Source: Daphnia pulex
Taxonomy: Eukaryota; Arthropoda; Branchiopoda; Diplostraca; Daphniidae
DNA length: 64,000 bases
Reading direction: 5' to 3'
Assembly: GCF_021134715.1 (NCBI RefSeq)
Contig: NC_060024.1
Span: forward strand, 13,256,974-13,320,973
Part shown: one piece after another, positions 10,463 through 48,662 of the stretch
How positions within the stretch are numbered: the first letter of the stretch is position 1
Layout: each line of letters begins with the position of its first letter
Made by a program: the position numbers and the translations under genes
Notes under the pieces: model-generated
What the model was told of the DNA's origin: nothing
The model's input: the letters and a program-made list of their open reading frames with translations, nothing else
Database searches by the model: none

Positions 10463-13400
10463 ATGGCCAGCATTTTTGTCAATTCCAGCACGAGCGCCGG
10501 CGACACTTCCGCCAATTTTTCAGCCGGAGCCGTTCTCTTGCGATTCATCCTGGATCTGGTCAAAGATCAGCGCCATCAAAGTGAAACTATCGGTCGTGAT
10601 CAAGTCATTGTGACAAACACTTCCGCAACTCCTGATGCCGACCAGGAATGGATGGCCCAGCATTTGCTGATGCCCATCTGGGCCTACCAGTCGGCCGCCG
10701 GTTATTTGATCTTCATCAGCGTCCTTGGTCTCTTCATGAACATTGTCGTCGTCCTAGTCATCATCAACGACCCTCAGGTACGTACATGTCGACTCTTCAT
10801 TTAAATCACATCATGTTTGATGTAAATATAGCAGACAGCGAGAGTTGTGTGTGTATAGAAGAGTTGTACTAGCGAGCTCAAGAGTTATTGCGCATCATCC
10901 CCTTAAGTGGTTTCCTTATTCCTTTTTCTCCCCCCCCCCTTTTATTATTTCATTAACTAGATATATCTGTCGTCGTCCTTGCGGGTCCTCGACGAACCCC
11001 GCAGAGTTCGGTTCGTTACGTCTGGCTGGGCTTAGCTCCTTGGCTCGTTAATATCTTGTTATGGCCGACGGGTTTATATTTTTAGTTTGTGAATTGCTCG
11101 AAAATGTCGGCATGTAGAGCTAGATGAGACTGTGTGTAATTATGTGTATACAGCTTTTATTACTGCGCTGCCAAACCTACTGGACAAGGGCGTATACTAC
11201 ACTCAAAAGGAAACTGTTGCACGTGTAGTTTACGGGTCCTTTTCTTGGCCATTATCCGGCTAATAGGCGTCTTTTGTCGCAGGGTGAAAGAGTGCGCCCA
11301 CACACAAAGGCCATATACTCACAAATACCGTAGAGATATACTTACTCCTGACTTTGATTCGCCTCGGCTCCTGTTTGTCAATGGAGTGTCTGCACATCAG
11401 GCGCTGTTGTATACACAAAAGGAGCTAGAGCGATCTACAGTTTCCATAGTTGATTTGTCATCGAGTGTCATCATCATAATCACAAGAGCCAACTCTTGTC
11501 ACATCCCCCGCGTCTTTCTGTTTCCTCCATCCTGTCACGTCGTGATTCTTCCTCCTACCCCCCCGTTATAGTGTCTGCTATGATAAGTGCCTGTTCCGTG
11601 CGCCCTGTGTTGTCTCTCGTCCGTAGTCTCTATCCTCCATCCCGGTCGTCGTCATATTATATATCCGCTCGATCGTTTTATTGCGTTATGTACTACGCTA
11701 GCGCGTCTCGTCTTCTTTGATTATTAGTCTTCTATCCCTTTGATATTTTGGCGTGATGCGCCAGATTCTGAGCTCCAGATTTTCACCCTGCCGGCGCCGT
11801 AATAACCAACTTTCCCGGCCGTCTATTATTTTTTTTTCTTTTTCCCCCAACAGGAAAGAAAAATAAATAACGTGCCATCATCTTTAATACAAAAGAGCTC
11901 GTCGGCCTGTGTATCAATATAACCGCGTAGTTATTTCGCCACGCTCTAGAGTCGCACGAACACTCTATAGATCATCATAAAGAGAAAAAAGGGAAAAGAA
12001 ATAGTCTTAAGAAAATAAAAGCCCATGACGCACAAAAGGAGCTTTCATGTCCCTGAAGACTATCAGCACGTCCCTGCGAATACTATTTAGACTGCGCCGC
12101 GTCGTGTGTAGATATAGTTTGGAATAATCATCTGCACTAGCGATCTACATGGTTATACATGAGGACGACAATAACTTTGGTCAAGTTCTTTCGCTCCACT
12201 CCTAGCCACTTGGCTCCTCCCCCTCTCTCTCTTGTTTAGATCATCTTTCCATTGGAGATTGTTGCAGATTTAGTCGCCCGTGTGGGGGTAGTTTGTTGAG
12301 TATATAGAGCGGCTGGCGGGCACAAACTGTGATGTTCAACAACGGAACTAGATTGGCAGAAAGAAAGTTCTGATTCTAAGTGAAACTTCATGGCGGTACT
12401 TCATTAATAATCTCTGGCAACTTTTGAACTCCCGCCGTCTTTACTTTGCGTAATCATGTTAGACAGCAGCGGGAAAGGTGCGCTAGAGTGCCTACGGGAT
12501 ATAGGCAACGCCCGCATATGCTTTCAAATGAATACAGTCTGGAATTAAATGTCTGTCTCGTTTTAAATGGGGATAATGAAATTCTTGGAAATTCTCCATT
12601 TCTTCCTTTTCTTTCTCTATTTCTCGTTTGGGAAATTTTCAATAAAGAAACTGATGTTTTATATCCATGTAGAAGTCGCCGCTGAATTGGATGTTGCTCA
12701 ATTTGGCCTGTTCCGACGGAATGATTGCCGGATTCGGGTATATTTCAATCAGTTTTTATACTTTAATCTAATAAATCGATGATGATGAAAGAATTTGATT
12801 ATTCCCAGGACGCCCATCTCGGCAGCTGCAGCTCTGCAATATAATTGGCCTTTCAGCGATGAATTGTGTGTCGCCTACGCCATGATCATGTCCACTGCAG
12901 GTGCGTCTTGAATTATTAATTTGAACAAAATTTAAATCTAATCATGTCTGGATGACGATGGGTGGATGTTGGATATGTATAGGAATCGGATCGATCACGA
13001 CATTGACGGCGCTGGCCTTGTGGCGATGTCAACTGGTCGTGTACTGCCCGGCCAAGCGGAGCGGGGCCTTCGCCAATCACCACAGCGGCGGCGGCGGCGG
13101 CGGCGGCAGCGCCAAACTGGGCCGAGTCCAGGCCGCCGTTTTGCTGACTCTCATCTGGGCCTATTCGTTGGCCGTCACTTGCCCGCCGCTATTCGGATGG
13201 GGACGCTACGACAGAGAAGCCGCCCACATCAGGTAAATAATCAATTTAATGAATAATTTCTCCCGGTTATTCGTTCGATCAAAAAGTGAAGTTGACTGTA
13301 CCGGCTGAACCCATTTTTCATTTCTCGACATACTTTGAATGATTAAGCGGCGCTAGACCCCTTTTTGTCCTCCGCCCACGAGAATGTGTCGTGGGAGTAT

Positions 13401-16270
13401 GTACCGACTCTTCAACAGTCATTTCTTTGGAAAGGGGAAAGCTAACATCCTTTCCCGTCAAATTTCTTCATCTTGAAATGTTACAGCTTGTTCATCTCGC
13501 CCATTTCTCGAGAAAGGATTCATCTCTTGAATGTCTCGTCATTTAATTGAAAAGTGTTGCCATTTGCTTCCCCAAGTGTTGCCACCACCTCAGCTTGATC
13601 GTTAGTCGTCGTCGGCAAATGGGTGAGAATAATAATGAAGGTGTGCGTTTATGGTCGTTTTTATCATTCCGTCGGGGGGTTTTCTTCTTCTTCCACATCT
13701 TCCGGGCCGTTAGAAACTTCAATCCGCGCTCGTCTTCTCCTTACGCACTCGAGTGGCGACTGTTGGCGAGACCCAAGTTGTCACGGCTTCCACACGAACG
13801 CACATTGCCGGTCGATTTCTTCTCCATCCGTTTTCTCGTCCTCATTTCTTCTTCCTTTTCCTCTTGTTATTTTAAAAAAAGACTCGCAGACCGACGCACG
13901 CCACGGGCGCCGACGTCATTATCGCCCCGCAACTCCCGGCTGGCTAAACAAGCGAACAAGTCCTTATTAAAAGGAAAAAATCTCTCGACAAAAACAAAAC
14001 AAGAGGGCCTTTATATGGTTTTCGCTTTTTTGTTTTGTTGTATGTTTTTGGTTTTTGGCTCTGCTGCCAAATCGCAAGGTTCATAATGAAGTCGTTGAGA
14101 GCCGAGGACGACCTTATCCGATTCCTGCGACAGGAAATGTTATCAGCATCTTGGGTTAGATTTTTCTTTTTTTAATGAGACCCGAGTTTGACGTCATCGG
14201 TAGGAGTCTAGGAGAAATGCAACGGTGAAAACGCGATTGATTGGTCGCAAAGTAGACAAACTGGATAACAGTCGCAAGAATTTGGCAATAATGTTTAGAG
14301 ACTTTGATCCGCTGTGACACACGTGCCGTATTGTTTTGAGTTACACGTCCGTCAGAGCGTGTGCGCTGGAAAACGGGAGGGGTGTTTTTAAGAAATGATA
14401 ATAGTCCACCTCTATACAAGTCGACGACGTCGGGTGACATACTGACATGCCACGCAGAAGGAATGTAATATCCACATCTCAATTTCGGTCGCCACCCTTT
14501 TTTAATATGACAGTTACTGCGTTACATAAAACAACTCGACTACTCCTCCATTCATATATGTCTAGAGAGAGAGACAATTTCGACGAGGAATGGCATTTCA
14601 TTCCCAGAAATAAGCGGTAATACCGTAGGGAAATGATTGAACGATGTTTCATTTTTTATTTTGACTTGTTTTATTACGTGACAAAAAAAAAAGCGGAGTG
14701 AATCGTTTCAACTTTATTATTTCCTTTCTTCTCAATGTGTTTATTGTTATGCTTATTTATCTTTTGATGTTTGAATATTTTTTTCAGCTGCTCGGTCAAC
14801 TGGGAGTCCAAGATGGCCAACAACCGGTCGTACATCCTCTACATGTTCGCCTTTGGATTATTCGTCCCCCTGGTCGTCATCATTTGCTCTTACGTCAGCA
14901 TCTTACGTGTAGTCAAAAAGGTAACCTAACAACAGCCATCATCGATCGTGTCATTGTGGAAACTAATGGAATATTCTTTCCTTTATGTTACACCTTCGGT
15001 CAAATCAACAGACGGGCAAGTTCAAGAGGTCCATGATGGTGACGTTTCAGCCGACGCCGCAACACCAAATCAGCGACCACCAAGCGAATCCGACGGCAAA
15101 GAAAATGGAACAGAAAAAAGGAAACGACGCGGCCGAGAAGCGAGTGACGGTGATGGTGGCCTGTATGGTCGGAGCCTTTATGGCCGCCTGGACTCCTTAT
15201 TCCATTCTGGCCCTCTTCGAGACTTTTATCGGAGTCGCCGGCCATTCCGGCGGACCAGGCAGGAACATGTCGAACACGACGTTTAGCCTCGACGGCCAGC
15301 AGCAATTCAACGACAACCAGCCGACGACCAGCAATGAGGCAGACGACAGCCATTTCTTTTATTATTACGTCGGAACTATTTCGCCGGCATTTGCCACCAT
15401 TCCGTCGCTCTTCGCCAAAACATCCGCCGTCCTCAATCCGCTCATCTACGGACTACTCAACACTCAGGTGAGTTTCTCAGATTTCTATCCGAAATTGCAT
15501 AACAACTTAATATTTTACGAATAATTCCTAATTTTTGTTTTTGTTTTTTTAATTATTTCCATCCTCAGTTCCGATTGGCCTGGGATAAATTTACGACGCA
15601 GCTCCTGGGTCGCCAGCACCACCAACACAATCACCGCCGCCATAAGAATAAACACCTGCGACACTTACTCAACTGCCCAAGCGGATCGCCAACGTTAAAG
15701 CCGTCGGCGTCTGTCCACCTGTCGATGAAAGATATTGTTTCCAACGAGTCGCAATCGGCTTACGTCATGCCCAACACGCACACCGGGCAGCCGGGCATCA
15801 ACTTAGCCATCAGTCCTCCCATTATGCGTTACCTCATCCAGCAACAACGGCGCCAGCCGTCAAAGTCCAGTCTCTTTGACGAACCTGAGACGTCCTTCAC
15901 CTACCAACAGCCCATCCGGATGAAACCGTGCAAGAATTCCCTGCAGGATCAGCCGGAAGAGGAGGTCATCAAGTCGGTGATGCTGCTGGCAGTCGGTTCG
16001 ATCTCCGGGAGCGTCACCAACGACAACCCGAACGAAGACTCTGCTTTCTCCCAGCAGACGTCGTTCGTCGAAGATAACACCATCGACAGCGGGTTGGTCC
16101 TTCATGGCGACACCGTCCCGTCACAGTCGCCAATTAGGCTGCCGGCAACGACCCAATCCAATCAAAACGATCGCAGAATTATCGACGATGGCGATGGCGT
16201 GGCCAATGCTGTAATAGGAGCCGACAACATCATCAGGATCAGTTACATCACGGCGTCTGTTGATTGCTGA
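10463..16270 (+). CDS. Ciliary-type opsin A (pteropsin-like), 7 exons
   Basis: Light-sensing G-protein-coupled receptor of the plasma membrane. Exons: 10463-10777, 12673-12737, 12809-12900, 12983-13232, 14788-14920, 15012-15467, 15569-16270. All introns are GT/AG and phases agree, giving 670 residues. The N-terminus has Asn-X-Ser/Thr sites and TM1 holds YLIFISVLGLFMNIVVVLVI. Cys147 and Cys242 match the conserved disulfide. Tyr150 is at the 113 position and Glu236 at the 181 position. Lys421 in FAKTSAVLNPLIYG is the retinal-binding lysine, followed by NPLIY and LNTQFR (NTQ where vertebrate ciliary opsins have NKQ). The E/DRY triad is Trp171-Arg172-Cys173. Loop 2 has seven Gly, extracellular loop 3 is about 50 residues longer than usual, and the C-tail is about 230 residues. 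The start was chosen because ATGGCC is shared by all three paralogs. Exon 2 lacks one codon present in B and C. Confidence 0.93.
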
Positions 16271-19200
16271 GCGGTTATGGCCTCATGGAATCGGAACGGG
16301 AAATTTGATGACAAACTTTATCGACAAGTTCAAAATGAGGTGAGATTACGTAGAGTTGACTATCCTGTTGTATAATCCAAAAGTTCCGTATCATTTTATT
16401 CATATCAAAGATGACCTATTTAAATATTGCATTAGTTATTATTACGACATCGGGTAATCACCCTTTTCAATTATTTCCTACAGCCACCGGAAATGTAAAT
16501 TGATCTCACACGACGCTACTTGCATAGTCTATTCCTATTGCCGAATTGATGTTTATTCATGATTCCCACGGAACCTTAAACAAATGCCCACTCTTATTAT
16601 CATGATTATTATGCAAATAATCTCAAACGTTGACGAATATTATTCTAAATTTTAAGCCGTATTATGGCAATTTGAGAAAATGTTTTCCGTAAAATAGTTG
16701 ATTCAAACGAATAACCCACTGTCATTATATTGCCCGTGTGTCTTTCCTTTCGCTTGTCAATCACAACTCACATTATCAGATTTATTATTATATTATGGTC
16801 TAGAGCATCTAGACATTTAAAAATACTACCATATCCAACATAACCCAAAAAAATTATTCTGGATGTACATATATACTTGTTAGTTGTTACAAGTGTTTTT
16901 TAAACATAGCTAAAAATTGATCACAGGGTTGTCTGTATAAATAAAACATTTTACCGGGAATTGATTCCACGTGATTTGTTTTTTTAGTTGGAAGTATTAC
17001 GGCTTCAACATTTCAGTATTCAAGATGCGCTCTACAAAGGCTTTGCTGTCTTCCTCTCCGATTGCTATTTTTGTTGAGTATTATGCTATCTACGTACATA
17101 CAACCGCATTTTCTTTTTTCAATATATATTTCCGACAGTTGTGATTGTCCATCGGGAAATCGGATTTCATTTTCTTTCTCTCCTCGAATGGGCACTGTCT
17201 GTGACAGCGCTTTATTTATCCGTTATCCGAAGGGTTTCTTTATACGGTGCAGGTTACGGTGCGGTATAGGGTCAGTGTCGGTGTTTTATACAGGTACAGG
17301 TTTTGGGGGCATACGGGAGGAAGTTGGCATTTTGGAGTTTTTGAATCGCGCGCCTAGAGGTTTCTTGTTTAACTGACAATAGATGGCTTTTGGATTGATT
17401 TGAACCGCGCGCGTCGAGCCTGGCTTGCCTCTTTACTCGCTAGATGGCACTGCGTTTGACTCCCGAATATTTTAGACCGCGCCTCCCGCCACCCCACGTC
17501 GCACTTATTTGCTCTAATCTTTTCTTTTCTTTAAAAAAAAAAGATGTTTACCAGGTTATACTTACATTTTATACACTCACGTCAGCTCTGCTCACGTGTC
17601 CACACACTCGTCGTGTGTGATGTGAAGGCAATCAGCGTAGTCAAATAGCAATGAAGGAGGACAACGGAACTAGGAGGACATAATTCGTGGCCAGCTGGTC
17701 AGTCTGATCGTTACCGTCGAGTCGCCAGACGCGGCTAGACGTATTTCCGAGTATTTCTGCTCTTGTGTTCACGTTATTTTCACAGCCCTTGATTTTTTTT
17801 TTTTTGCATTTGCCATTGCCCTCGCAGCAATGTGAGTATACATATACTACACCTTCGTCGTTAGCCAGTAGATCGATTCCACGTGTAATTCCCCCAATTT
17901 AGCGTCTTCTGAGGCATTTGACATTTTGTAATTCTCATTCGACTAGTTCACTGTGGCGACTGCAAGACCTTTGAGTTTGACTTTTTATGGAAGAGGAACA
18001 TGAACATGCATCCGGCAAATACTTGTAGACCTAAAACCTTCTTCTGAAGAAGTAACGGACAAACGCATAATGTTAGCGTTGCATTCACATTTGAGAAAAC
18101 CCAAGAAGAAAGTTACAGGTCGCAAAAATCCTGCCAATTCCATAAATAAAGCATTGGTTGCGAGGATTTACAACTTCAATAGTCGGCCTATGTACTGTAG
18201 AAACGTATAGGGAGTCACACAGGGTCGGCACGACAGCACGAACAATCCACACGTGTAGTATATAGCATCCACAGCGACTTGTATCATTCTCCTGCTGCGC
18301 AGAAATAAGAGATGGGAAGTCGCGCTGGCTTATATACAAGCGCGATTTGTTTGCCTTGATTAATATAGGAGCCAGAGCCACGAGCGGGCGACTTGTACTA
18401 CAATGCCATGCCAAAGGACGAAACTAAACAGAAATGCGTGGCCAGCAAAGTTGAATCTTTATTCTTTATTCTCGTCGCTCTTTGCTGTATATAGCACGCG
18501 CCCAGCCAAGTTTTCGCGCTCTCGATTCATTGCGTGCGATTGCGTGTTCACTCATCCATCCTTCCGCTGCGCTGTCTGTAGCCCCCGAAGCAACGGCGTC
18601 GACAGCACAGCAAGAACATTATTGCATCGCATGGATGGACCGCTGCAGCAGCTCTCTTTATAACTGTATACTGCTGGGGCGCGTGAGTTCGTCTATTATA
18701 CAAATACATCGCGGACGAGGATATGTATACCGCGGATATATAGGCTCTGCTTATAACAGCATAGACACAGCACGATGCGTGCCAACCGCCTTTACCTTTG
18801 AAGTTGCCTCCTCCCCACTTTCCTTTTTGTTGGGCAACTCATCTAGTCTTCTATGGCGCTGATCAACACAAGCACGAATATATTTCTAAAAGAGCTTCAA
18901 TTGCTGGCGGCATGATGAATTGGCCGCATGATTTGAATTTGTTTAACAGACTGAAACAGACATCAAGAATCGCGAACTCTAAACGCTACCGGTACAAATA
19001 TTATGGAAATGATGGTTAATATATATATGGTTTTAAAGATATATCCTTTTCCTGAAACTAACCATCACTTCCGGGTTGAATTTCTTCCGCTTTCTTCGCC
19101 TATCTTATTCTTCCCCAGAGATGGCACTTGGTTTTTTAAACGAGTGAAACCAACCGAATTAAACCAAGAATGTGTTTTTCAACACAATAACTTCTTTCCA

Positions 19201-24767: not shown

Positions 24768-24871
24768 TGGTTTCGATCGGCAACTCAACAATCTGCATGA
24801 CCTAATCAAACGCTCCGCTGATGCTTATTCCTTCATTCCGCCAACATCAGAAGATGCACAACCGGATCAGG

Positions 24872-27800
24872 ATGGCCATCCCTACGACTTCAAACATTTA
24901 CCCGGACGTTTCAGACGCTTTCCTTGCCGGGTTCGGTCTAGTCGTCGCCAAAGAGCAGCAATGGCGTCAAGAAGATTTGATGGCCAACGCTTTGTTACGC
25001 AACTCGTCGTTCGACAACGCAATCGCATCATCAACTGGCGACCAACAGACAGAATTGGCCCATTTGCTGATGCCCATCTGGGCCTACCAATCGGCCGCCG
25101 TCTATTTGATCTTCATCAGCGTCCTCGGGCTCGTCATGAACATTGTCGTCATCCTAGTCATCGTCAACGATCCGCAGGTTGTTATATTTAACGGATTATT
25201 ATGTAACTTGGAATGTTTAGTCGATTGAGTTTATTCGTGAATCCAATGTTTATGATGATAATTCATTTCGCCCAATTACGACACAGAAGATGACGTCGCT
25301 GAATTGGATGTTGCTCAATTTGGCTTGTTCCGACGGATTGATTGCCGGATTCGGGTATATTTCAATCAGTTTTTATACTTTAATCTAATAAATCGATGAT
25401 GATGAAAGAATTTGATTATTCAGGACGCCCATCTCGGCAGCTGCAGCTCTGCAATATAATTGGCCTTTCAGCGATGAATTGTGCGTCGCTTACGCCATGA
25501 TTATGTCCACTGCAGGTGCGTCTTTCATTTTTAATTTGAACAAAATTTAAATCCAAGTTTAAATGTAATATCATGTCTGAATGACGATGGGGTGGATGTT
25601 GGACATAGGAATCGGATCGATCACGACATTGACGGCGCTGGCCTTGTGGCGATGTCAACTGGTCGTGTACTGCCCGGCCAAGCGGAGCGGGGCCTTCGCC
25701 AATCACCACAGCGGCGGCGGCGGCGGCGGTGGCAGCGCCAAACTGGGCCGAGTCCAGGCCGCCGTTTTGTTGACTCTCATCTGGGCCTATTCGCTGGCCG
25801 TCACTTGCCCGCCGCTGTTCGGATGGGGACGCTACGACCGAGAAGCAGCCCACATCAGGTATGAAATAATCAAGTCTAAGTGCCTAAAATTCCTAGAAGA
25901 ACCATAACCTATAGGCGAAGTGACAAAGAGCTTGAACAAAACAAAGGAAAGGTCAGGGTAAGTTCTATTGATTTATTGTACATTCCAGCATTTTCTACTA
26001 TTCAGGTGGGTCCTGGACAACAGTCCCGTCATAAAACCTCAACAAATCTCTCCAGGCGTATAACAGGAGCCAATGATCCCTCTTTCGCTCACCTTGTTTA
26101 ACACTCGCATTTCCCATTTCTAATCATGTTGTTATTCACAATTGTGTCTGAACCTTGTCTGTATAGTTGCTCGGTGAACTGGGAGTCCAAGATGGCCAAC
26201 AACCGGTCCTACATCCTCTACATGTTCGCCTTTGGATTGCTCGTCCCGTTTCTCGTCATCGTTGTCTCCTATGTCAGCATCTTGCGTGTCGTCAAAAAGG
26301 TACAGTAACTCGACCTGACGCTATATTGATGGGAAACATATAGTTGGTTTTACCTTGTGTGTGTTGCCCAGACGGCGTAGAGTGCACCGAACGGAGTGGA
26401 GGCAGCTCTCTACTTATTATGTAATTGTAAGCCGCGTTATAGCCATGGCAACTTGTTGCTCTGGTGGGAGCCAGCGTTCCCTCTGGTGAGAGTCTTTCCT
26501 TTCCGTTCCCTATATCCGACGGTCAAGTTGGTGAAAAACAGGTCCGTCCATTGTCGAATAATTCTAAAAGTGCATAAAGCGCTGCTGCATCGACGCTGGG
26601 GTGCAGTGAATAACCCAGTCGGTTCTATCTCTTATTTACTTTCAAAAGTAGCTCTATTGCCGTTTTAAGACGATAAACAATGGAACGCATTGTTATTATG
26701 AGCAGAGAGATTCATCGCCCTAGATCAACGCATATAGGCTACCCCCAAGCTAGATAACCAAGTGCATATAGGATATTATTATAAAGTTAGGAAAAAGTTA
26801 CGACTACCGTTTTTTTTTTAAATGTTGTGCCACGTAGACGGATGAATTGTTATTCACGCTAAAAAATATTGAGAATGATTATAACGATGCCCAACTGTTT
26901 GCCCGACCAAGGATTTATTATTATACTTCTAATTATAATAATGAACTTGATCGATTTTTTAGGCTAAAGCACAATTCCTAAAAATAAAAACCTCTATGTA
27001 CATAATCAATTGTTACATTTCTTTTGGTGGCCGATATTACAGACGAAAGAAATGAGGAGAAAATCGCAGGCCTCCATGACGGGTTACAACATGCACAAGG
27101 AAAAGAGGAGCCGACGAGCAGAGTCCGACTCGGATCATCAACATCCATCGTCTACGAGTACTAATAAAAGGAAACCTCGGTCGAAAAATAAAATCAAGCG
27201 GAGCAGCAACAGCGACGCGGCCGAGAAACGGGTGACGGTCATGGTGGCCTGTATGGTCGGAGCCTTTATGGCCGCCTGGACTCCTTATTCCATTCTGGCC
27301 CTCTTCGAGACTTTTATCGGAGTCGCCGGCCATTCCGGCGGACCAGGCAGGAACATGTCGAACACGACGTTCAGCCTCGACGGCCAGCAGCAATTCAACG
27401 ACAATCAGCCGACGACCAGCAATGAGGCAGACGACAGCAATTTCTTTTATTATTACGTCGGAACTATTTCGCCAGCATTCGCCACCATTCCGTCGCTCTT
27501 TGCCAAAACATCCGCCGTCTTTAATCCGCTCATTTACGGACTTCTCAACACACAGGTGAATAAATCATATCCTTCTATTTTTATACAGTACATTTCAATT
27601 GAATATCAATTATTTATTTAAAATTGACAGTTCCGATCGGCTTGGGTGAAATTTACGAGTCGCTTTTTGCGTCCACGACCACGTCGACATCACCGTCGTC
27701 GCCGCAACAGCAAAGATTTGGCGGTCAACATTTCCGGCCTCGCCAAGCCCAACAGGAAAAAAGAATTGTGGCAATTGCTGAATTGCGCAGGTGGCAATTC

Positions 27801-28356
27801 GACGTCTCTGAGGCAATCGGCCACTGTCCACCTGTCGATGAAGGAAATCGTTTCCAACGAGTCGCAATCGGCTTACGTCATGGCCAACACGGTGGGGGGC
27901 CAGCAGCAGGTCGTTAGCGCCCGTCAAGGAGGAGATCAAGAAGATCAAGACCAACGACGAAGGCCGAAAAATCCGGCGAATAAGACATCGTGTTCATCAA
28001 TGTCCGATCCAGAAACATCCGTCACTCAAGAGCAGACGATCCAGATGAAATCCTTCCGGCAACGACATCCGCTCAGCGTCCAGCAGCAGCAGCCGGAAGA
28101 GCAGCCAGCACAAGAACAAAAGGCCGCCACCACCACCAAGTTGGCGGCAGTCGGAATGATTTCAGAATCGACCAGCTGCTCGTGCACCAACGGCGACCAC
28201 AATGTCGTCACGACCACCACATTGGAGGAGGAAGTTTCGGTTTTCTCGGCGGATGCGTCAGCTGGCGCAGCAACGACATTCACCAAAAGTGAAACTCATC
28301 CGCAGACAGTTGCATCGGTTACATCAGCCTGTCCAGCATCAATCGAAGCGAAATAA
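24872..28356 (+). CDS. Ciliary-type opsin B (pteropsin-like), 7 exons
   Basis: Second paralog of the tandem opsin family. Exons: 24872-25177, 25287-25354, 25424-25515, 25609-25858, 26167-26299, 27043-27555, 27631-28356. Together they give 695 residues with the same phases as opsins A and C. ATG 24872 (ATGGCC) matches the paralog starts; ATGs at 24821 and 24854 are in frame but lack counterparts. It keeps TM1 (YLIFISVLGLVMNIVVILVI), Cys and Tyr at the 110/113 region (LCVAY), the Trp-Arg-Cys triad (Trp169), Glu at 181, retinal Lys438 in FAKTSAVFNPLIYG and LNTQFR. Cytoplasmic loop 3 is longest here and rich in Lys, Arg and Ser. The C-tail shares LSMKEIVSNESQSAYVM with opsin A and DSTSC-type motifs with opsin C. 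Introns 2 and 3 are nearly the same as in opsin A. Confidence 0.93.
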
Positions 28357-35470: not shown

Positions 35471-35759
35471 TGTCATAGTTTTAGCGCTGCGAAATCGTAA
35501 ACTCGCTCATGATAAACTTAAGATTAACTTGCGCTCAATGCGCTAAATAGCCGGATTAAGTTCATTACATAAATTAAGAAGCGCTCATATAATTTGCTGA
35601 AATAAATATTTAGCGCAGATCTAGCGCAAAATATATTGACTTCATTATTTTTCGCGCTAAATATTTATTTTTGCTAGTTATTTCAACAAAGCTAATACAA
35701 GCGCTAATATGATGTACGGGCGCGCGCTTCTCGTCCCGTCTCGTCCATTTGCCGTAATC

Positions 35760-36450: not shown

Positions 36451-37732
36451 TAAGTTGAGACCACGAAGCATATGCAAACAAAGTTTGAGAATATAAAGAA
36501 AACGGAACGATAACTCTTCTGAAAACGTGCGTGGCTGCACGAAAAAATTATGAAAAAAAACAAAACAACAAGAACAAATCAAATTACGAAAATGTGATCG
36601 TCTCGTGTGATGTGTCTGGTCTCTGGTGTCGTAGCTCTCCACTCGATGCTTTTTGGCGGGTAAATAAAACTAAGAATAGAAATGCAATGATTATATGGGA
36701 GCTTAAATAGTAAAGTTAAACCTGTTCAGGCTGTTCTAAATTTGTGAAATTTTAGTTCCAGTGTCTAGCACATGCAAGCCCATGCCTGTCGATGTATGGC
36801 ATTTTCTTTGCACTATGTAACCCTTTTTCCATTTGTGCAGATTTGAGGCCATCGTAACAACACATCAAGTTCTGCTTGTGCTGAGTCTGTCATTAGTCTG
36901 TTTGTCTCACCTGTCATCACCAGATATCTCAGCATGATCTCAGCATCACCGCTTAGGTAATGTTTTTGGTTACTATTATTCCTGCATGATCTGCACCTGC
37001 TAGACATTTTACTGTTGCATTACCTGCATCAATGCAGTGTATTACATTGAAACCTTGAATTGACCCATTCATTAACAATTAGAGTTTACCCAGTGTTTCA
37101 TTTTCAATTCTGACTTGTTGTGGTTTAAGTTGTTCTGTGAATATTTTTCGTAACCTATTTTTCTTTTTTTGTTTAGATACACAGCATCCCCATTGCATTG
37201 GAAAAACTACAGATGCCAATCGAGTTATGGATCACTTCTTTCCCCTTTCTTTCAATGTTCTCGTGTACGCCCATGCGAGTGTAGGTGTATTCACGAGGAC
37301 ACCCTTTTTACCCTATCCCGTCTGGTGTAATTGAAATCTTCAGCGAATGGATGGAGCAACTGACGTAGATGCCTGGCTGTATTTCCTAGTCATAAAGGTA
37401 GGACAAAATTGATCTCAATTTTTCCTTTTTGGCAATTTTTGGTGGCGTTCATTATAAATCGATCGTTAGTACCGGTTAGTACATACTACGTGGATTCGAT
37501 GAGCTAGGCGGTTGACTGCAACTGTTTTCTCTCTCTGATTTGTTTTTTCTCAGCACTAAAAATCTCATGTGTCGACCGACTGTCGCAGACCAGGCCTGTT
37601 TTGGTACTTTAAAACTTTTTCTGTTGATTAAACCATCCCATTTGAAAATATTTGAACTTGAAACACTTGAAGCAAAGTGCAGCAAGACCATTTTTTGACC
37701 AAGAGCCTGGACCTGGAGCCACACAGGCACCT
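36451..37732 (+). repeat. Dispersed repeat family, copy 2, right fragment
   Basis: Continues the family sequence beyond the inserted element: TTTGAGAATATAAAGAAAA, TGTGCAGATTTGAGGCC, TATTTTTCGTAACC, the exon-like block 37177-37397 with AG and GTAGGAC borders, and the CTTGAAGCAAA...CAGGCACCTC end. It is more diverged from copies 1 and 3 than those are from each other. Confidence 0.65.
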
Positions 37733-40700
37733 CCTCGTTAACGTGATGTAATAAAACTGGTTGCCGTTATATAGTCTTCCTATCCTACATGACTAGCATA
37801 TATAGGTCTGTGTGCATTTCTTAGAGATGAATCAGATGATAATAGATTACGCCCAGGGCAATAGCCTACCATGTTCGAGATTCATTAATGAAGCACTGTG
37901 ATTAAACTTGACGCGTTTGTAGAGGGCCCCAAGTTGGAAAAAGTTGAGCCTTTCCAGCAACCAGCTCACGTCGCCTTATTAGAATCAACTTTGGCCCTTT
38001 ATCAGAATATAAAGTCTCAAATGTTTTCATTATTATTAGCCTTCTCCTTTTCGTTTATTTCGCATCGCCGATCGAAGCCAAGCGGTGAGACACACATCTT
38101 TGACGTTTTCATTTACAGCATCCATGTAGACCTGTGCACACACAGCAAAATGCTGTCTAGAAAATCGTCCCGTAAAGCTCCTTTTGGCGCCTTTGACAGC
38201 TCCTTTTTCTCTCTCTAGGCTGTGGATACTTTCTTGTGTCAACATGTTCAGCTGATTATGTTCGCCTGTGGAAGACAAGGAAAGATTCCGCTCGAGATGT
38301 CAAAGAAAAGAAAAGAAAAATGCGCTTGTGCTGTGACGATGATCGTTCAGCCGAAGCGGGAATTTTTGACGAGACAGATGTGACGTCAAACGTCGTGCGT
38401 TTCCAATTCTTTGCCAATCTAACCAGCCTGATTTGCTATATACTCTCCCACTCACTGTGTATATAACATGGCCAATCTCTATTACGGGATGTGTGTGTGT
38501 GTAATATCTAACATTTCTCCGTGTATATACACACACAGCTATATTATATAGAGGCTTGCAGTTCTTTTGTATACATAGTATAGGGAATAATGAATAGAAT
38601 CGAGGATCCAATCTACACAAAATACAAAGGGAAATAGGCATGGGAAGATGTATCACGCGCACACGCGGCTCTTCCTTATGTTTATAAACTCTCTCTCCCT
38701 CTGTATGTGTGCGTGTAGCGGGGCGGCTTGCTAATGAGCTCTCTCGCTTGGCAAAAGTCTATTTTTATTTTGTGACTTTCTTATTATACCCAGCTCTGGT
38801 CTATACTTTTCTTTTGACTTTTTGGCCTATTCTATTATGGATAACGAGTCGCCCATTTGCTAAAACATGACGACGACTAAGAGCCCAGCAATTGAAATGA
38901 AACAAAACACTAATATCAAATCTGTTCCTGAAACAGCGCAGCAGAGCACATCAGAAATTCCGAATTTTTGTTTTTTTCTTATGAACACAACCTTGAATTT
39001 TCTCCACGCGTCGTCAAATATCGATCGCCAACGACGGGCGGGGGCCCGCCCGCCAATCTGTTATTAGCCTACATACGTAGTACATATAATAATAATGATT
39101 ATTATTGTTGTTTCCAGTCGTCAAATGAATGTACGTAGTCGAGCGATGAGTAGCTTTCAGACATCTGCCATATTTCTATGTATCTCAATACGTTTGCCAA
39201 AAGGAGAGCAGACAAAAGGCCAATAGTTTCAGGAGTTGTGCATACACACATTTCCATTTGGAATTATCCCGATGGGCGAAAAAAGGGCCAATGCGACGAC
39301 TTGTGTACAAGGACACTGTCGTCGGTGAATCCAACAGCAGCAGCAGCAACAATTCCCGTATTGTTGTTGGGCTTCAGTCGAGTATGTAGGTAGCGATAGA
39401 CGAGACGTGGAAGCTTATAGACAGTCAGAGTTCCACTTGAATGGACCACTCGTCTTTGATTGGGACTCGGTCGTCGTCATATTTATTCACGGGATTAAAA
39501 ATTGAACGAGAAGCGACACGCAGTGTGGGTTGCATGGAAAAGAGTAACGCGCTTCTGCCTCAGGTTGTGGTATGTACCCACGCGTTTGTATTTTGATGAC
39601 TCGGCAAAAAGATGCGGAGGTCGCCACATTGAAACGGTGGACACAATTCTATTGATAGCGGAAACATAAAAAAGGGCAGCAGTCGATCCTGATGAGCAGT
39701 CTAGATATATGTGTACTGTTATTTATATAAGAAACCCAACCCACACGTTGATGGCCGGACTATAACCGTCCATCTCTTTGGCTGGGAAGACGTAGGTGGA
39801 CGACTAAAGAGATTTATATGTGTGTGTAGGAGAAATATACTGTAGCCTTGGGTCACTATCTCTTCTAGATAATCATCTGATGGCCAACCTTTTGGAGAGA
39901 ATATAAAAAAAGGAGGAGATCCTAATTTAGAGCGATTTGGCATCATCCATTTCCATTCTTCTCTCGGAAAGCGACTGAAAGTTCAAAGTTTCTCATTTCT
40001 CCCGAATTTATAGAACCGGAGACAACAAGGAAGTAGAAAATCCTTCCGTGAAGTATATAATAAATACGCTGGATATCGAATATCATCCGCCGTTGCGTAT
40101 AATTATTATTCTGAAAAGACACGCGAGTCTCTGTCGTCGGATATATCTCTACTAAAACCAGTTAAAGATCCTCGTGCAACTATATAAAAGAGAGAGCAAC
40201 GAATGTCATTAGATCTACTATGTGTCTATATATTATTTCTGTGTGTGTGCAGCAGTCGCGTAGGACTGAAATTGTGTCCGTCTCTTAATGTTTCTTCCGC
40301 CATCGTCCGACGGAGCAGCCCAGCATCAGTGCAGGCAATCCAATTCCTTTATACATCTTTCTCGGTAAAACTGCTGCATAAAGATCCTATCCATCCGGCC
40401 CGATCGATCCCGGTCGAACCCCCCCACTCCATATGTGCCATATTCCGCTTCCACCCATTCATCCGCATCTGCTTCGACTCTCATTTTCACATCCGGCTAT
40501 TCACTATTATTTACACAGGCGTAAAAGTCTGATGAACTGCACGTTTGACCGATGACCAGTTCATTCATTCAGAGACGAATTGAATTATTAATAACCCGCT
40601 AATGGCATTATATTAGACTCTATTGTCTTAGATTGTTCGCCGGCTCCATCTCTGAGCTTTAGCGGGCATCCAGTTGTGACGGATGGATTCCAAATATTTT

Positions 40701-43290
40701 AGTTTCAGTCTGTACATATACCCAACGCCTGATGAAAAATCGGCAGCAACGGCTCCCGATGAATTCAACGGCGCCTATAACCTTAATGAATTACAATCAA
40801 AAGGGCCTTTTTTCTTCTTTTCTCTAAATGAGGACAATCAAGTCTGTGCGGAATATGTAGAACTCTTTAAGCCGATGACGTCCGCGTCCTTCACGAAGGT
40901 GATGGGGATGTCGTGCCAAAAATTTGAGTTTGCTGGTTTGACTGCGCGGACGGACGCCAATAAATAATTGAGCACGTGTTTCGATCGCTTCTATATATAC
41001 AAAAGTTGAGTTTGAATTGACAATCCTGTTATTCTGGCGGTGGGAAATGTTTTTGCCATATTGATTTGTACCGGCATTTCCACGGCAGTTGCCAATCCAG
41101 CACGTCGTCGGCTATATACCTGCCGGCTAGAAATCATTAATGAAGGCCCTGTTATCGACTTTGATTTCACAGTATAGTAAGATGTGAGAATCTCATTAGA
41201 CTAATTATGCTGCTGATGCACGGGTGCCCTTTTAACTAACGATTTCGTTATTCCCCTACGCTCCGGTCAGTTGATGCGTTAGACGGTCGCAGCAGATTCA
41301 ACGAGGAAAACGGATGGCCGAGGAATTTATTTGACTTTAAATCAATTCCTATCTATCGATTTCCCATAGGCTGAAATCCTGCCAGACATGTAATAGTTGG
41401 ATAGGCTCGAAGCTCAATCGATATAGTCGTTCTAAAGCCATATGGCCATCCAATCAGCAAGAAACTTGGAATAAAAGTTGAGAGTTATAAACCGACACTT
41501 GATGTATTAGCCGTTGTCCAATTGACGTCAAAGGGTTTGCCAGAAAAAAAGAGATATAGTACATCATTGAACGCGAATGTCTTCCGGCTGCTGTGATTCT
41601 GAATCCAGGAACAATTTTTCAGATTCTCCACGGAAATTTTGGGTTTGCCAGCAAACCATCGAAGGCATCACTTTCGATTGTTTTGTTGTTTTTTTTTAAA
41701 AAAAGATAAGAATGTTGAGTCTATGCATTTTCCGCCGCCACGTTAACTCTTCAACAAATAAGCAATTTAGTAATTAATGTGTACACTTTAGATTTATTAG
41801 TTGGATGGCAAGAAGCGACCACAGCTGCTGCTGAAGGAGCGCCGCTATTATGCGCCGGAGACGTCCAATATCCTCGACGTACATACTAAATCAGCTGCAC
41901 TATTAATGTAAACGAATGTTTCTTAAAATAGCTCGGTAAATCATTTTTTGTGTGTGTTTACTTTTATAAGCTAAAAATAATTTTCGTCCTAATTATTATG
42001 ATTCTTGGAATTTTCATCATTTTAAAAATTCCGGTCCCGTGTACACGATGATATAAGCCAACCAGCAGAATAAAGTGATGGCGTTAATAATTCTTTGGCG
42101 GATTTATTTTTGGCAAGTGTTGCCATAGCGACGCAATAAAGTTAATTGCCCGTGCATGATGTTGATGTCTATACGTGAGACGTCTGGCATGATGGAATGT
42201 GTACATACGCAGCACGCCAAGTTGTTGTAGTAGTCGGCAACACGACACTATAGCGACAGCACAGTGCGTGTTCGCCAAAACTCAATCCGACCCGCTGGCC
42301 AACAACAAATCAATGAATAAGGCGGCGACAGTTTGTTCCGCTGTGTATTGGTTATGCAACTCCATCATGCATATCAATATACATAGTAGATATGTATTGG
42401 CATCTAACTATTAGACGCTGCTGTAATATAACGCTGGCAGCTGGATCGGCTTAATAATTTGATTCTTTTTTTTTTTCTTTCTAGCGGCGGCCAATCGATC
42501 TAAATCAGTCGAAATCAATCTTCTTCTTCTCCTTCTCGGCCCGTCTTATTCCACTTTTCGGCTGGATGGCTGGCCGGCCTGACAATGAAACGGGATTCAG
42601 CGACGCGTAGTGCGTGTGCCGTCGCCCAGTGCTGCTGGCCCATTGTATTGCCCGCGAGCTGCACATCTTGTGTCGTGCAGTGAAATTCGATCATCAAGTC
42701 GACAGTGAGAAGTGAATGGGAATCGAAGAAAGAAGAAGAAGAAAATGGCCAGCAAAGAGGACGGAAAGGAATAAAGAAAAAGACGAAAAGGATATTTACT
42801 GCGTGCAGAGCAAAGAGATGATGTCATTATCCATAAAAAGAGAGAGAGAAATAAGAGCCAAGTTGCAAAGAAAAATCCCGAAATGAATTGAATTTCTTCC
42901 ACTCAGCTTTGGAGGTGTGTCCATGTGGACAAAGCCAATCGGCCGATATCAGCAATCGCGAAAAACGGAAGCAGCAAAAGGCGTTTAATAGCGCACACGC
43001 CGCCAATTGCGGATCTAACGACATTAACTCCCAGCATCAGCCAGTTAAAATCTGATGCAATCAGCAAAATGTAGAATCCCTACACTACTGTGCATGTATC
43101 TGTGATGTTACATCTTTCCTGACGTGGACGCGACGGCGACGATCGCGCATATCCGCTGGATATATTCCGGACTGTGAAAAAGGGGGTGGGGGGAAGGGGG
43201 GAGAGAGGAAAGGGCTTGGATCTTGCGCTCCTGTGGTGTGGCCGGAATAAATACAACACAAAGTGCTCCTCTAGCTCCTCTACTAGATAT
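37733..43290. other. Intergenic upstream of opsin C
   Basis: No gene is supported. Around 37907-38020 one plus-strand frame has a protein-like segment (FVEGPKLEKVEPFQQPAH...) without an acceptable start, splice border or known domain; it may be a gene fragment. The rest is AT-rich with CT and GT microsatellites. Confidence 0.4.
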
Positions 43291-43291
43291 A

Positions 43292-43326
43292 TATAAAAGA
43301 CGGTCCGTCACGCGACAGCCTTTAGT
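43292..43326 (+). promoter_or_regulatory. Core promoter of opsin C
   Basis: TATAAAAG, then GGTCCG, then CTTTAGTCGG with the A of TTTAGT at 43324. The arrangement and spacing match those before opsins A and B. It implies a leader of about 729 nt. Confidence 0.65.
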
Positions 43327-43838
43327 CGGCCACCGCTGCTCCCCAAGTAAGAAACTATACAGCCCGTGTCGCACATCCCATCCAGCGCCGATCCGCAGTG
43401 CTGGTCTATATTCGTCACCCAAAAGTTGTTTGATCCGCAACAAATAAAACAGTGCGCGCCGTGGTGAATGGGCCAGCCATCAAGTGATGGTCCATGTTCG
43501 TGTGCCAGCAGCAGCAGAAGCTTTTGTCTTGTGATTTATTAGCCGTCACATCGATTGCGTCATTCACAATTCGCGTTGTGTGCTGAGACGACGAGAAGGG
43601 GCCGCCAGCCCAACTTTTTTTCGACCAAAGTTTTCCCCTTTTATTCCGACCGAGTGAGCGGCGAAGAAATCAAATCACCGTCCAGGTTGTTGACCACATT
43701 TCCTGGGGCACGGCCACTGTGTGTTGATTGCCCATCGGACGTTGTGGCGCAATCGGAAAGAAAAAGACAAAACCAATAAGACTGTGTAGATATAATCTAA
43801 CACAGGAGCGTGATACAAGCTTGAGCTGTCATGTGAAA

Positions 43839-44051
43839 ATGACGGCGACCGCCATTGTGATTGATGCCCAGAGCGGATGGATTATTTCCACCTTGTTCTT
43901 AAAATACTATTTGGCGGATCGCTCGGTTAATATTGCCTCCGACCGGATGCTTTGCGGATCGCTGACAATCGCGACGGACATCCGAGAGTCTCGAAGCTGG
44001 CCCGTCAGCCATTGCCACTGCCCGTTGGCCGCCTCGTCGATATTTGAATAA
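43839..44051 (+). other. Upstream ORF in the opsin C leader (70 aa)
   Basis: ATG 43839 opens a 70-residue frame starting MTAT that ends TAA at 44049-44051, one base before the opsin start codon at 44053 (TAAGATGG). Such close stop-start spacing could favour or block reinitiation. Opsins A and B carry smaller uORFs at comparable places. Confidence 0.4.
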
Positions 44052-44052
44052 G

Positions 44053-47000
44053 ATGGCCAACATCAGCAATAACGAGTCCAACGAGACTGCTGATGCTGTC
44101 CGGCTGCTCGGATTTGTCATGGACATGTTCAATGAACAACAGCAACAATGGCGGGAGCATCAAAGTGATTGGTTGGCCAACAACCGATCGACAGACGTCG
44201 ATCAAGTGCAAGTCGGTGACGCAACAACAACATCAACAGACCGGACGATCGAAGAGTTGCAGCTCCTGATGCCCGTCTGGGCCTACCAGTCGGCCGCCGC
44301 CTATTTGATCTTCATCAGCGTCCTTGGTCTCTTCATGAACATTGTCGTCGTCCTAGTCATCGTCAGTGATCCACAGGTATTTTTAAATGGTCATCGGATA
44401 TAGTATTTGCTGTCAGTCTTCTCTCAACGGCTATGATGGCCGTCCGTTCTCTTAATAGTCTCAGATTGTTTTGTGTTCATTTCGTCACCGACGGTGGGTT
44501 TTGGAATAATTCAAATGTCTCGGCAGCACAGAGGATTAAACGGCGACACGCGCAGATGATGGAAAGCGAGACGAGATATGAATAGCTGCAGGTGGGCAGA
44601 TTCTGCCCATTTCGGTGTGTGTGGTGCAATATGTACGAATAATGGGCGCGGCGAAGAATGAATGACAAGTGACGGCAGCAGTGTTATTATACAAAAAGTA
44701 GGCAGCCAAGGAATAATGAAACGATCTAATTATTAATAACCGACTATGCATAGTTGAAATAGCGTGAAATAGTTTTATTTTATTTATAGCACACGTCTAG
44801 CCGGCAGCAGCAGTTGATATTAGCCATAATGAATACCTAGACATCATCAAGGAAAAGAAAGAACTGAAATTAGAAAGAATATTAACCGGATATACCTATT
44901 TAATAACCAAACGAATTTTCAAGCAGAATGATGGCGGATTAATTAAATTTTTTCTTTTTTTTTTTTGTTGTAGATCGGAAGTCTTGAAAATAAGTCTGAA
45001 ATGTTGACAGATTCGTTGTTCTCATCATTCTCGTCTTAATTCCTTTTGTGTTGTGTTTGCCGGTTGCATTTGATTCTATAAGGGAATCCGTCCGTCATTT
45101 GATCCAAATGAATAAAGATGGCCATTTTGATGCAGCTGTCCAGTTGCCACTGTTTGTTACAGCACTCAGAAGGACGCAACTATGTAGGGACGACGGACCG
45201 GCAGCAGAAAGTTTGAGTGCCAGGAGCTCTCATATGGTGGCTGAACTCGGCCAATAAGGCCATGAGCTTTTGCTCTCGTTTTTTCCTCACTAGATTATTC
45301 GCCGCTTGAAATTTTGTCTCTCCATCGGTGGACCGAATTTCCCATTCCAGTTGCGTCATCCATGAAATAATGACCCGTGTTTTTTTTATTTATTTATTTA
45401 TTTGTAAGGCCTTATATTACTGCTGGGAAATGGATGGACTATGTGATGTGCATTTCTTATGTCGGTGGAGCCTTTTTTTCTGTTGAGTGCGCGGCAGTTA
45501 CCAACATTTATCGAATTCTTTTCGGGTTTGCCCAGCCGGTTCTCCTGATGATTTATTCGTATTTTTTCTTCGGAATTGCAGAGAATGACGCCCTTGAATT
45601 GGATGCTCCTCAATTTGGCCTGCTCCGACGGAACCATCGCCGGATTCGGGTAAAATTTTGTTATCATTTTGAATGGGCACTTGACGAACCTAACCTTTAC
45701 GTAATCACAGGACGACGATATCGACGGCTGCAGCTTTTAAATTCGGTTGGCCTTTCAGCGATGAATTGTGTGTCGCCTACGCCATGATTATGTCCACTGC
45801 AGGTGCGTTTTTCATTTTTAATTTAAACACAGTAATTTTAAAATGTTATATCATGTCTGGATGACGATGGGTGGATGTTGGACATGTATAGGAATTGGAT
45901 CGATCACGACATTGACGGCGCTGGCCTTGTGGCGATGTCAACTGGTCGTGTACTGCCCGGCCAAGCGGAGCGGGGCCTTCGCCAATCACCACAGCGGCGG
46001 CGGTGGCGGCGGCAGCGCCAAACTGGGCCGAGTCCAGGCTGCCGTTTTGCTGACTCTCATCTGGGCTTATTCGTTGGCCGTCACTTGCCCGCCGCTGTTC
46101 GGATGGGGACGCTACGACCGAGAAGCCGCCCACATCAGGTATGAAATAACCAACACATTGAATGGATCCTATTCATTAGTCCATTTAGACTTAATGGAAA
46201 CGTAGAGATGAGCACTGCCAAGCGACGGGCCAATATATGCCGGCATCATCCTCTTTGCAAGATTGCAGAGGTTATCGACCGCGGTAGAGAGAAGATCATT
46301 ATTCACGAAACGTAGAGCCTAGCGCAATTTTATTGCGTCAGAGTCGTACGTGCGCGAGGAATGTTATCACATTTCCGGTCGGGTTCGGGAGTCTAAGGCG
46401 AATAAGTCGGAAAGTAATTGCTGCAGTCCGTCTTTTCTCAATCCATCCTTCAGTCCCTCATCAGCGGAAAGAAAAGATATGGATACGCAGAAATGGCGGA
46501 GAAGAAAAGTTTTTCGACATTTAGGGGGTTTTATTTTATTTTTTTTTTTTTTTTTTTTTTTTTGTTCCACCGGCCCAGCAAAATTCTAAAAAGCGGACGA
46601 AGCCGAAATGCTTTTCCTATTAACAACTTTCCCTTTTGCTGTATGGAAGAGCAATCCGAGATATGGCCGGCGGAGCCCATCATTTGCTTCCAGTTCGTCA
46701 AAATCTAAACGCACATATCACTACATCTCATATCACAACATAATATGTATTATGGAATAGGGGGTAGGACAATATAGTATAATAATAATAATAGGCGCTC
46801 CTCTTATTCCTCTAACGTATTGATTTCGTTCTACTTGAACTGCTGCTGCACAGCCAGCCAAAAGACCCGCCGGGTAATTACACGACAGTCCCTCCCTTGT
46901 TGGCTGTCATTTTAGACGATAATCATTCACGTTGAAACAGCTCGTTCAATCGACTTAGATTCTGCTGTGTATGGGCCTATTGAGGCACATGCTTGTACAG

Positions 47001-48662
47001 CAGTGCCGGGGATTATTATTAGAGACTGACTGACGTTATTACAGCGCACTCGAAACGGAAGCGTCAAATACTTACGCTCGAGTCGGAGAACTTATGCTGG
47101 ATGCCATTCTCTCTCTAAATCGATTTTTTGCGTTTCATGCCATTCAAAATTGCTCGTTTTGAATGCTCAGTTGCTCGGTCAACTGGGAGTCCAAGATGGC
47201 CAACAACCGATCGTACATCCTCTACATGTTCGCCTTTGGATTATTCGTCCCCCTGGTCGTCATCATTTCCTCTTACGTCAGCATCTTACGTGTAGTCAAA
47301 AAGGTAATTGTTTCCGACACCTCAGCACCTGGATCGATTCATCTGCTGACGTCATAATTTGATTAAGTTAAGCAATTTGATTTTTCCTCTATTCTTTTTT
47401 TGACCTACAGACGGGCAAGTTCAAGAGAACGACGTTACAGCAATCGACGCAACAGCAAAACGAGCAGAGGATAACGCCCGATCTCCAGGAAGTGAAGCAA
47501 CAGAATCTGAACAACAACCAACAACCGACCAGGACGTCCAGTAAGAGTAACAGCGACGCGGCCGAGAAGCGAGTGACGGTGATGGTGGCCTGTATGGTCG
47601 GCGCCTTTATGGCCGCCTGGACTCCTTATTCCATTCTGGCCCTCTTCGAGACTTTCATCGGAGTTGCCGGCCATTCCGGCGGACCAGGCAGGAACATGTC
47701 GAACACGACGTTGAGCCTCGACGGCCAGCAGCAATTCAACGACAACCAGCCGACGACCAGCAATGAGGCAGACGACAGCCATTTCTTTTATTATTACGTC
47801 GGAACTATTTCGCCGGCATTCGCCACCATTCCGTCACTGTTCGCCAAAACATCCGCCGTCCTCAATCCGCTCATCTACGGACTACTCAACACTCAGGTGA
47901 GTTCTCCCATCGGTCCTAGACATACTATATTATCACATTGCAATTAATTGAATAATATTGGCTTGACAGTTCCGGTCGGCTTGGGATAAGTTTGTGATTC
48001 GGTTCCTGGGCCGAAGTCGACGTCGCTTCCGGTGTCAGCAGACCAGCCAGGGCCTGGACGAGTCTGGCAATCAAACGGAGCGTCGCCGCCTGCGCCGATT
48101 ACTCGATTTCAGTTTCACGATGAAACAGTCTGTGACTGTCAACTTGCCCATGAGGGAAGTTGTCCCGCTGTCCAACAACGACTCGATCAATTCGACGGGC
48201 AACCAACAACAGAAATCGACTTCATTCAGAAACGTCAGAGGGGCTTCGGCCAATAGTCCGTTGACGTCAGTTCAAGCGGCGACCCAGTACCAATCGAACG
48301 GCGATCAGAATCGCAAGATATCATCCGACTGCGACTATTCCGCCAGACAGCCGAAATACAGGGAATCGGTCAACCCTTTCGTCGGGACTACTGCGACGTC
48401 GGGACTAACGAATTCAAAATTCCCGCCGGGTAAAAAATCGTCCAAGAATTCTCACCGCAATTCCAGGCAACAGCAGCCACAGTCTGAGCAGCCCGTCAAG
48501 TTGGTGGTCGTCCGTTTGCTGTCCGACTCGACCAGCTGTTGCTACACCACCGAAGAAACGTCAGTCAGTCTGAATAGTCCGGCCATCGGCCGCTCGCCAT
48601 CCAGCAAGAGCCAAGCCAATAAAGCAAACAGTTTGCCCAGGCCCAATCGTCAGGTGGAATAA
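44053..48662 (+). CDS. Ciliary-type opsin C (pteropsin-like), 7 exons
   Basis: Third paralog of the tandem opsin family. Exons: 44053-44376, 45582-45649, 45711-45802, 45892-46138, 47171-47303, 47411-47896, 47970-48662. Together they give 680 residues with the paralogs' phases. The N-terminus has several Asn-X-Ser/Thr sites (MANISNNESNETAD). It keeps LCVAY, Trp-Arg-Cys for E/DRY (Trp175), GWGRYDREAAHI with Glu at 181, retinal Lys434 in FAKTSAVLNPLIYG, and LNTQFR. The Gly run in loop 2 has six residues, one fewer than A and B. Exon 3 encodes TTISTAAAFKFGW where A and B have TPISAAAALQYNW, so part of TM2 and loop 1 differs and could tune the pigment. The C-tail is the most divergent but keeps LLSDSTSC. 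Intron 2 is unlike that of A and B; intron 3 is similar. Confidence 0.93.
46539..46563. repeat. Poly-T tract in opsin C intron 4
   Basis: Run of 25 T bases between exons 4 and 5 of opsin C. Confidence 0.9.

Follow-up and report, generated by a model that had tools for sequence, protein, structure and literature searches.

Tryptophan or leucine replaces the E/DRY acid in a family of pteropsin-type opsins of Daphnia pulex

We analysed a stretch of 64,000 nucleotides from Daphnia pulex (positions 13256974-13320973 of contig C8; hereafter, the window) that contains three opsin genes, A, B and C, assigned below to the pteropsin kind. In all three, the acidic residue of the E/DRY motif at the cytoplasmic end of transmembrane helix 3 (TM3), which is position 3.49 or Glu134 of bovine rhodopsin, is replaced by tryptophan. 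The six introns of each gene are all GT-AG and the spliced models contain no internal stops; their start methionines were chosen by us. The genes and the features on which the argument rests are as follows.

10463-16270, + strand: pteropsin gene A, spliced model of 7 exons and 670 amino acids (exons 10463-10777, 12673-12737, 12809-12900, 12983-13232, 14788-14920, 15012-15467 and 15569-16270)
12983-13232, + strand: exon 4 of gene A, encoding most of TM3, intracellular loop 2 (ICL2) with a glycine run, TM4 and the start of extracellular loop 2
13021-13029, + strand: gene A Trp3.49-Arg3.50-Cys3.51 (TGG CGA TGT)
15411-15467, + strand: end of TM7 of gene A in exon 6, with Lys7.43 (FAKTSAV), NPLIY and NTQ
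24821-28356, + strand: pteropsin gene B, spliced model of 7 exons and 712 amino acids (exons 24821-25177, 25287-25354, 25424-25515, 25609-25858, 26167-26299, 27043-27555 and 27631-28356)
25647-25655, + strand: gene B Trp3.49-Arg3.50-Cys3.51 (TGG CGA TGT)
27499-27555: end of TM7 of gene B, with Lys7.43 (FAKTSAVF), NPLIY and NTQ
44053-48662, + strand: pteropsin gene C, spliced model of 7 exons and 680 amino acids (exons 44053-44376, 45582-45649, 45711-45802, 45892-46138, 47171-47303, 47411-47896 and 47970-48662)
45930-45938, + strand: gene C Trp3.49-Arg3.50-Cys3.51 (TGG CGA TGT)
47840-47896: end of TM7 of gene C, with Lys7.43 and the NPLIY and NTQ motifs as in A

Helix 3 of each opsin ends in Leu-Ala-Leu-Trp-Arg-Cys (LALWRC), in frame at 13012, 25638 and 45921. 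A phmmer search of PDB chains matched 303 distinct sequences at E <= 0.001; in the alignment with bovine rhodopsin this stretch runs gap-free over 'LAIER', which places the Trp opposite Glu134 and the Arg opposite Arg135. The spacing from Cys3.25 to Arg3.50 was 25 residues in all eight models of the family described below, the same as from C110 to R135 in bovine rhodopsin. A usual E/DRY motif a few residues away was looked for, and neither Asp-Arg nor Glu-Arg was found near the motif in A, B or C; the gapless alignment and the fixed spacing led us to reject a misalignment. The exon 3/4 junction is in phase 1 in all three genes and the Trp codon lies 38 nucleotides into exon 4, which means that moving the acceptor cannot make this Trp into Glu, and an acceptor placed 3' of the Trp would remove part of TM3. 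We therefore rejected a different exon 4 acceptor, a judgement made on gene models rather than cDNA. These results confirm what the initial annotation had read from the letters of the window, namely that Trp-Arg-Cys stands in place of E/DRY in all three opsins, with the Arg kept and Glu134 exchanged for Trp.

The same annotation had also pointed to the change from Tyr136 to Cys. The Cys is indeed there, directly after Arg3.50 in all eight family members, with Tyr at 3.51 in none of them, but it loses its value as a distinctive marker because Glu-Arg-Cys (ERC) occurs at three further opsin loci in this genome. The helix end is also aligned with less certainty than Trp3.49: in an alignment of 25 positions of the eight members to bovine rhodopsin, the aligner left a two-residue gap directly after Arg3.50 and placed other residues in the 3.51 column. 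Compared with bovine rhodopsin, there is one extra residue between Arg3.50 and Pro, and ICL2 is longer.

We searched the genome (133.19 Mb in 13 contigs) using peptides from exon 4 and from exon 6/7 as queries and retrieved the matching regions. Five further copies were recovered. D is a fourth tandem copy on C8, with its gene end about 160 bases before the start of the window; E3 is on contig C3; contig C10 carries F10, G10 and H10. Introns are GT-AG in all five copies, and no model has an internal stop; the last exon of H10 is known only as an open frame and was left out of its model, and the core analyses stop before it. Thus, the count of three opsins in the initial annotation holds for the window, but the copy set is wider, with at least eight intact-looking members, a lower bound given that the search scored the best candidates only. 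Residue 3.49 is Trp in A, B, C, D, E3 and F10, encoded by TGG in all six, and Leu in G10 and H10, encoded by TTG; Arg3.50 is present in all eight. Two degraded copies were also seen. A pseudogene between G10 and H10 (C10:2529600-2531500) has frameshifts, a deletion in TM3 and Leu at 3.49, and a relic far from the tandem array (C8:1227533) consists of exon 4, with stops, and exon 5, without TM3. Asp or Glu occupies 3.49 in none of the nine pteropsin copies with a readable TM3 (six Trp and three Leu, the pseudogene included).

By contrast, residue 3.49 is acidic in all 21 readable non-pteropsin receptor loci (Asp in 14, Glu in 7). These controls were drawn from 28 loci, 24 of them distinct, comprising the 8 top scorers for the 7tm_1 profile and 16 loci similar to pteropsin exons. 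Choice by 7tm_1 score favours loci with the canonical motif; L035-L051, chosen by their TM6-TM7 part, are free of this bias. The residue was unreadable in 3 of the 24 (L021, L042 and L048); the open frame of L021 gives Ser-Arg-Tyr, but its alignment begins there, at a possible intron end, and it was left out. The three ERC loci are among the controls and are read as arthropsin-like. None of the titles, abstract openings and passages covered by our literature search describes a Daphnia opsin with Trp or Leu at 3.49, which need not mean that none has been published.

Several features point to ciliary-type opsins (c-opsins). Among the best 60 of the 303 PDB matches, bovine rhodopsin (1e-27) ranked ahead of squid rhodopsin (2.5e-21) and jumping-spider kumopsin (8.3e-20). 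In a 13-row tree the family grouped with bovine rhodopsin, apart from four rows of the rhabdomeric (r-opsin) type, with support of 100/99; bovine rhodopsin is the only c-opsin outgroup in this tree, its branch was marked as long and uncertain, and L049 was excluded. Non-vertebrate opsins have a counterion pattern in which Glu181 is present and residue 113 is not Glu, with Tyr being usual at 113, and all eight members have Glu181 and Tyr113. Because r-opsins have the same pattern, it is not specific to c-opsins. On this evidence, A-D, E3, F10, G10 and H10 are best assigned to the ciliary type and to the pteropsin kind, a name that follows from their c-opsin affinity and from the multiple pteropsins reported for D. 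pulex (PMC3851285; papers are cited here and below for the passages that bear on the point at hand).

Apart from the motif, most of the receptor switch is in place. All eight members are identical to bovine rhodopsin at 19 of the 25 aligned positions: N1.50, N2.40, D2.50, C3.25, R3.50, W4.50, E181, C187, P5.50, Y5.58, E6.30, T6.34, M6.40, W6.48, P6.50, K7.43, N7.49, P7.50 and Y7.53. This set includes the Schiff-base lysine (K7.43, bovine K296) and the ionic-lock partner Glu6.30. Four positions are altered in all eight, namely E113 (Tyr), E122 (Ile), E134 and Y136. K231 is retained in A-D only. At R147, A-D have Lys and E3, F10, G10 and H10 have Arg, although this loop alignment is uncertain. 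Arg3.50 and Trp4.50 lie 35-44 residues apart (35 in F10), compared with 26 in bovine rhodopsin, and in A-D this stretch includes a run of six or seven glycines, encoded by a GGC/GGT repeat (7 Gly in A, 13084-13110; 7 in B, 25710-25736; 6 in C, 45993-46016).

Exon 6 also encodes an insert in extracellular loop 3 (GVAGHSGGPGRNMSNTT...; 15231-15371, 27319-27459 and 47660-47800), which A-D carry in near-identical form; E3 and F10 have a shorter version, and it is almost gone in G10 and H10.

The non-acidic residue has been retained over long divergence. Over 274 gap-free core columns, comparisons of A-D with E3, of A-D with F10 and of E3 with F10 gave synonymous divergence (dS) of 1.27-1.79 and ratios of nonsynonymous to synonymous divergence (dN/dS) of 0.06-0.11; core dN/dS was 0.06-0.21 over all 28 pairs of the eight genes. 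The TGG codon is unchanged on C8, C3 and C10 while the adjoining Arg codon varies (CGA, CGT and CGG). A Poisson estimate of the chance that TGG would be kept in three unconstrained lineages is 0.0003-0.003, a rough figure because dS is near saturation and a star tree was assumed. In a midpoint-rooted tree of the eight genes, G10 and H10, with Leu, split from the six Trp genes with support of 100/100; within the six, the tree does not settle how E3, F10 and the tandem copies branch relative to one another. A non-acidic residue at 3.49 is thus a conserved trait of this family, kept by selection and not a product of decay. Because the tree separates the Leu pair from the Trp six and each residue is retained, the acid was probably lost before the family radiated into these eight genes, with Trp in one clade and Leu in the other kept thereafter.

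Within the tandem array, the evidence for this retention has to be read differently. Exon 4 has a nonsynonymous divergence (dN) of 0 and dS of 0.06-0.13 among A-D, with one glycine fewer in the ICL2 run of C and D, and the TM6-TM7 part of exon 6 has dS of 0.07-0.22. Between pairs of A-D, dS spans 0-0.92 in exon 2, 0-0.44 in exon 3 and 0.07-0.45 in exon 5, and reaches 0.62-1.20 in exon 1 and 0.87-3.06 in exon 7, the last two ranges being rough because the tails of these exons align poorly. Intron 3, which adjoins exon 4, shows 86-92% identity in each of the six pairs. A, B and D share the same intron 2 (100% identity), which matches that of C at 49%. Introns 1, 4, 5 and 6 mostly show chance-like identity, with intron 1 of B and D (83%) and intron 6 of C and D (95%) as exceptions; long introns were compared over 150 bases at each end only. 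At the protein level, the N and C termini are strongly diverged among A-D, as is intracellular loop 3 except between A and D. The mosaic region covers 12673-13232, 25287-25858 and 45582-46138, together with exon 6 of each gene.

Since the similar introns adjoin the similar synonymous sites, this pattern points to repeated gene conversion across the core exons of the receptor in A-D, and duplications of differing age could add to the similarity of the core. Because exon 4 appears to have been homogenised, the three copies in the window are not independent witnesses for Trp. The initial annotation had argued that a Trp shared by three paralogs is not random decay; its conclusion holds and is borne out by TGG in the paralogs on two other contigs and by their dN/dS of 0.06-0.11, whereas its argument from the three tandem copies is weak. 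More generally, a homogenised core between diverged ends is a caution against scoring tandem opsin copies as independent evidence.

Other features of the window lie outside the opsin exons. Relative to the first copy of the direct repeat listed here, the last is 92% and the middle 61% identical.

2570-2735, 37097-37262 and 51485-51650: direct repeat of 166 nucleotides
59125-60669, - strand: gene for a sina/SIAH-like ubiquitin ligase, lying downstream of gene C; its open reading frames match the Sina zinc finger (PF21361, 4.4e-17), and their match to the Sina RING (PF21362, 2.5e-05) is under the cut-off for that profile
61379-61897, - strand: open reading frame with a match to DNA/RNA non-specific endonuclease (PF13930, 1.3e-06)

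In rhodopsin, the acid at 3.49 pairs with Arg3.50, which also pairs with Glu6.30 and Thr6.34, and Glu134 is taken to hold the dark state. As this lock opens, Glu134 becomes protonated (PMC10457330). With moderate confidence, we read the family as intact pteropsin-type c-opsins in which the E/DRY acid has given way to a bulky hydrophobic residue kept by selection, and which would still be gated by light from a looser dark state. Light would isomerize the retinal on Lys7.43 and open the G-protein pocket, as in other c-opsins. In the dark, Arg3.50 would be tied by the TM6 side of the lock only (Glu6.30 and Thr6.34), while Tyr5.58 and Tyr7.53 would serve as its kept active-state partners. Because Arg3.50 would be held from one side only, the inactive state would be easier to leave, with raised basal activity or a stronger response to light as the outcome, and activation would proceed without the Glu134 protonation step. 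The partner is probably Gi/o, by analogy with mosquito Opn3, and the stretch from Arg3.50 to Trp4.50, 9-18 residues longer than the bovine one, may adapt the G-protein face. Raised basal activity, stronger light signalling and loss of the protonation step are each plausible, and altered basal activity or G-protein choice, as the initial annotation proposed, is a reasonable inference. Precedents among receptors with a non-acidic 3.49 go both ways: ORF74, with Val there, signals strongly at rest (PMC12462484), and the TP receptor with E3.49V gained agonist efficacy but not basal activity (PMC3610872). A further-reaching version, in which the whole family, lacking the 3.49 carboxylate, is constitutive or 'superactive', is activated independently of pH and is tuned by Trp or Leu between the two clades, is put forward only tentatively, as a less likely reading.

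Several points weigh against the reading of light-gated receptors with a looser dark state. Its sequence facts are firm, but its mechanism is inferred; dS near saturation leaves the retention estimate rough; and conservation was seen among the paralogs of one genome. Trp and Leu could also represent two separate losses of the acid. In the TP receptor, the E3.49V mutation raised agonist efficacy and did not raise basal activity (PMC3610872), which shows that loss of the acid need not raise basal activity. In the kiwi green opsin OPN1MW, the natural E134K change was read as a loss of function, and the same paper cites a non-functional mutant in which Glu3.49 was changed to Arg (PMC4511969).

One alternative, a real but lesser possibility, is that the loss is compensated and quiet: the hydrophobic residue packs on neighbouring helices or ICL2, the lock between Arg3.50 and Glu6.30 is enough, and the receptors have normal dark activity and coupling. 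The invariance of Glu6.30 and Thr6.34 in all eight members speaks for this, as do the unraised basal activity of the E3.49V TP receptor and the fact that Gly, Ala or Ser occupies 3.49 in some natural receptors, namely GPR84 and 4 of 286 human receptors (PMC9508565). Under such packing, free drift among hydrophobic residues would be expected, yet Trp is fixed in one clade and Leu in the other; this counterpoint is weak, with two states only and eight genes. It is improbable that G-protein signalling was lost altogether, leaving retinal photoisomerases, retinal binders or light-independent receptors. Both the G-protein-facing motif and ICL2 are changed, as such proteins would allow, but Arg3.50, Tyr5.58, Glu6.30 and NPxxY are present in all eight under strong purifying selection, and a non-signalling protein would not need them. 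The C10 pseudogene and the C8 relic speak for decay of the motif, through relaxed constraint or pseudogene formation. This reading is very improbable and was rejected in view of seven complete GT-AG models, of H10 with its last exon seen as an open frame, and of low core dN/dS in every pair.

If the family does consist of light-gated receptors with a looser dark state, its members may be natural light receptors that work without this part of the switch. Eight opsins of one animal lack the 3.49 acid in two hydrophobic forms while the other checked switch residues are present. They offer natural constructs with which to ask what the E/DRY acid does in opsins, and they are candidates for dark-active or pH-insensitive light sensing.

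Among solved structures, bovine rhodopsin is the best match and shares the 19 compared residues listed above with all eight members. It differs in having Glu134 and Tyr136 where the family has Trp or Leu and Cys, in having Glu113 where the family has Tyr, and in its shorter stretch from Arg3.50 to Trp4.50. Another close group consists of the arthropod c-opsins, including honeybee pteropsin, mosquito GPRop11/12 and the D. pulex pteropsins, which we compared by description only. Mosquito Opn3 (MosOpn3) belongs with the pteropsins. It is an arthropod opsin that has been tested in cells, where it couples to Gi/o and light lowers cyclic AMP (PMC5824942). A review calls the pteropsin signalling cascade completely unknown (PMC9776813). 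In scallop Gq-opsins, the motifs listed are DRY, DRF and DRC, in which the third residue alone varies (PMC10733189). The kiwi OPN1MW resembles our family as a natural opsin without Glu134, but the kiwi cases involve basic residues and lost function, whereas the residues here are hydrophobic and purifying selection persists.

Across rhodopsin-like receptors, Asp or Glu is reported at 3.49 in 85% (PMC9508565). ORF74 of Kaposi's sarcoma-associated herpesvirus (KSHV) has Val3.49 and high basal signalling, which its authors credit in part to this residue, along with other changes (PMC12462484). Like the family here, ORF74 and GPR84 have lost the acid and kept Arg3.50; they differ in that they are not light receptors, carry Val or a small residue rather than Trp or Leu, and have other changes in the switch. 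Natural receptors with a non-acidic 3.49 are thus already known, and the Trp/Leu opsin family adds a variant to them.

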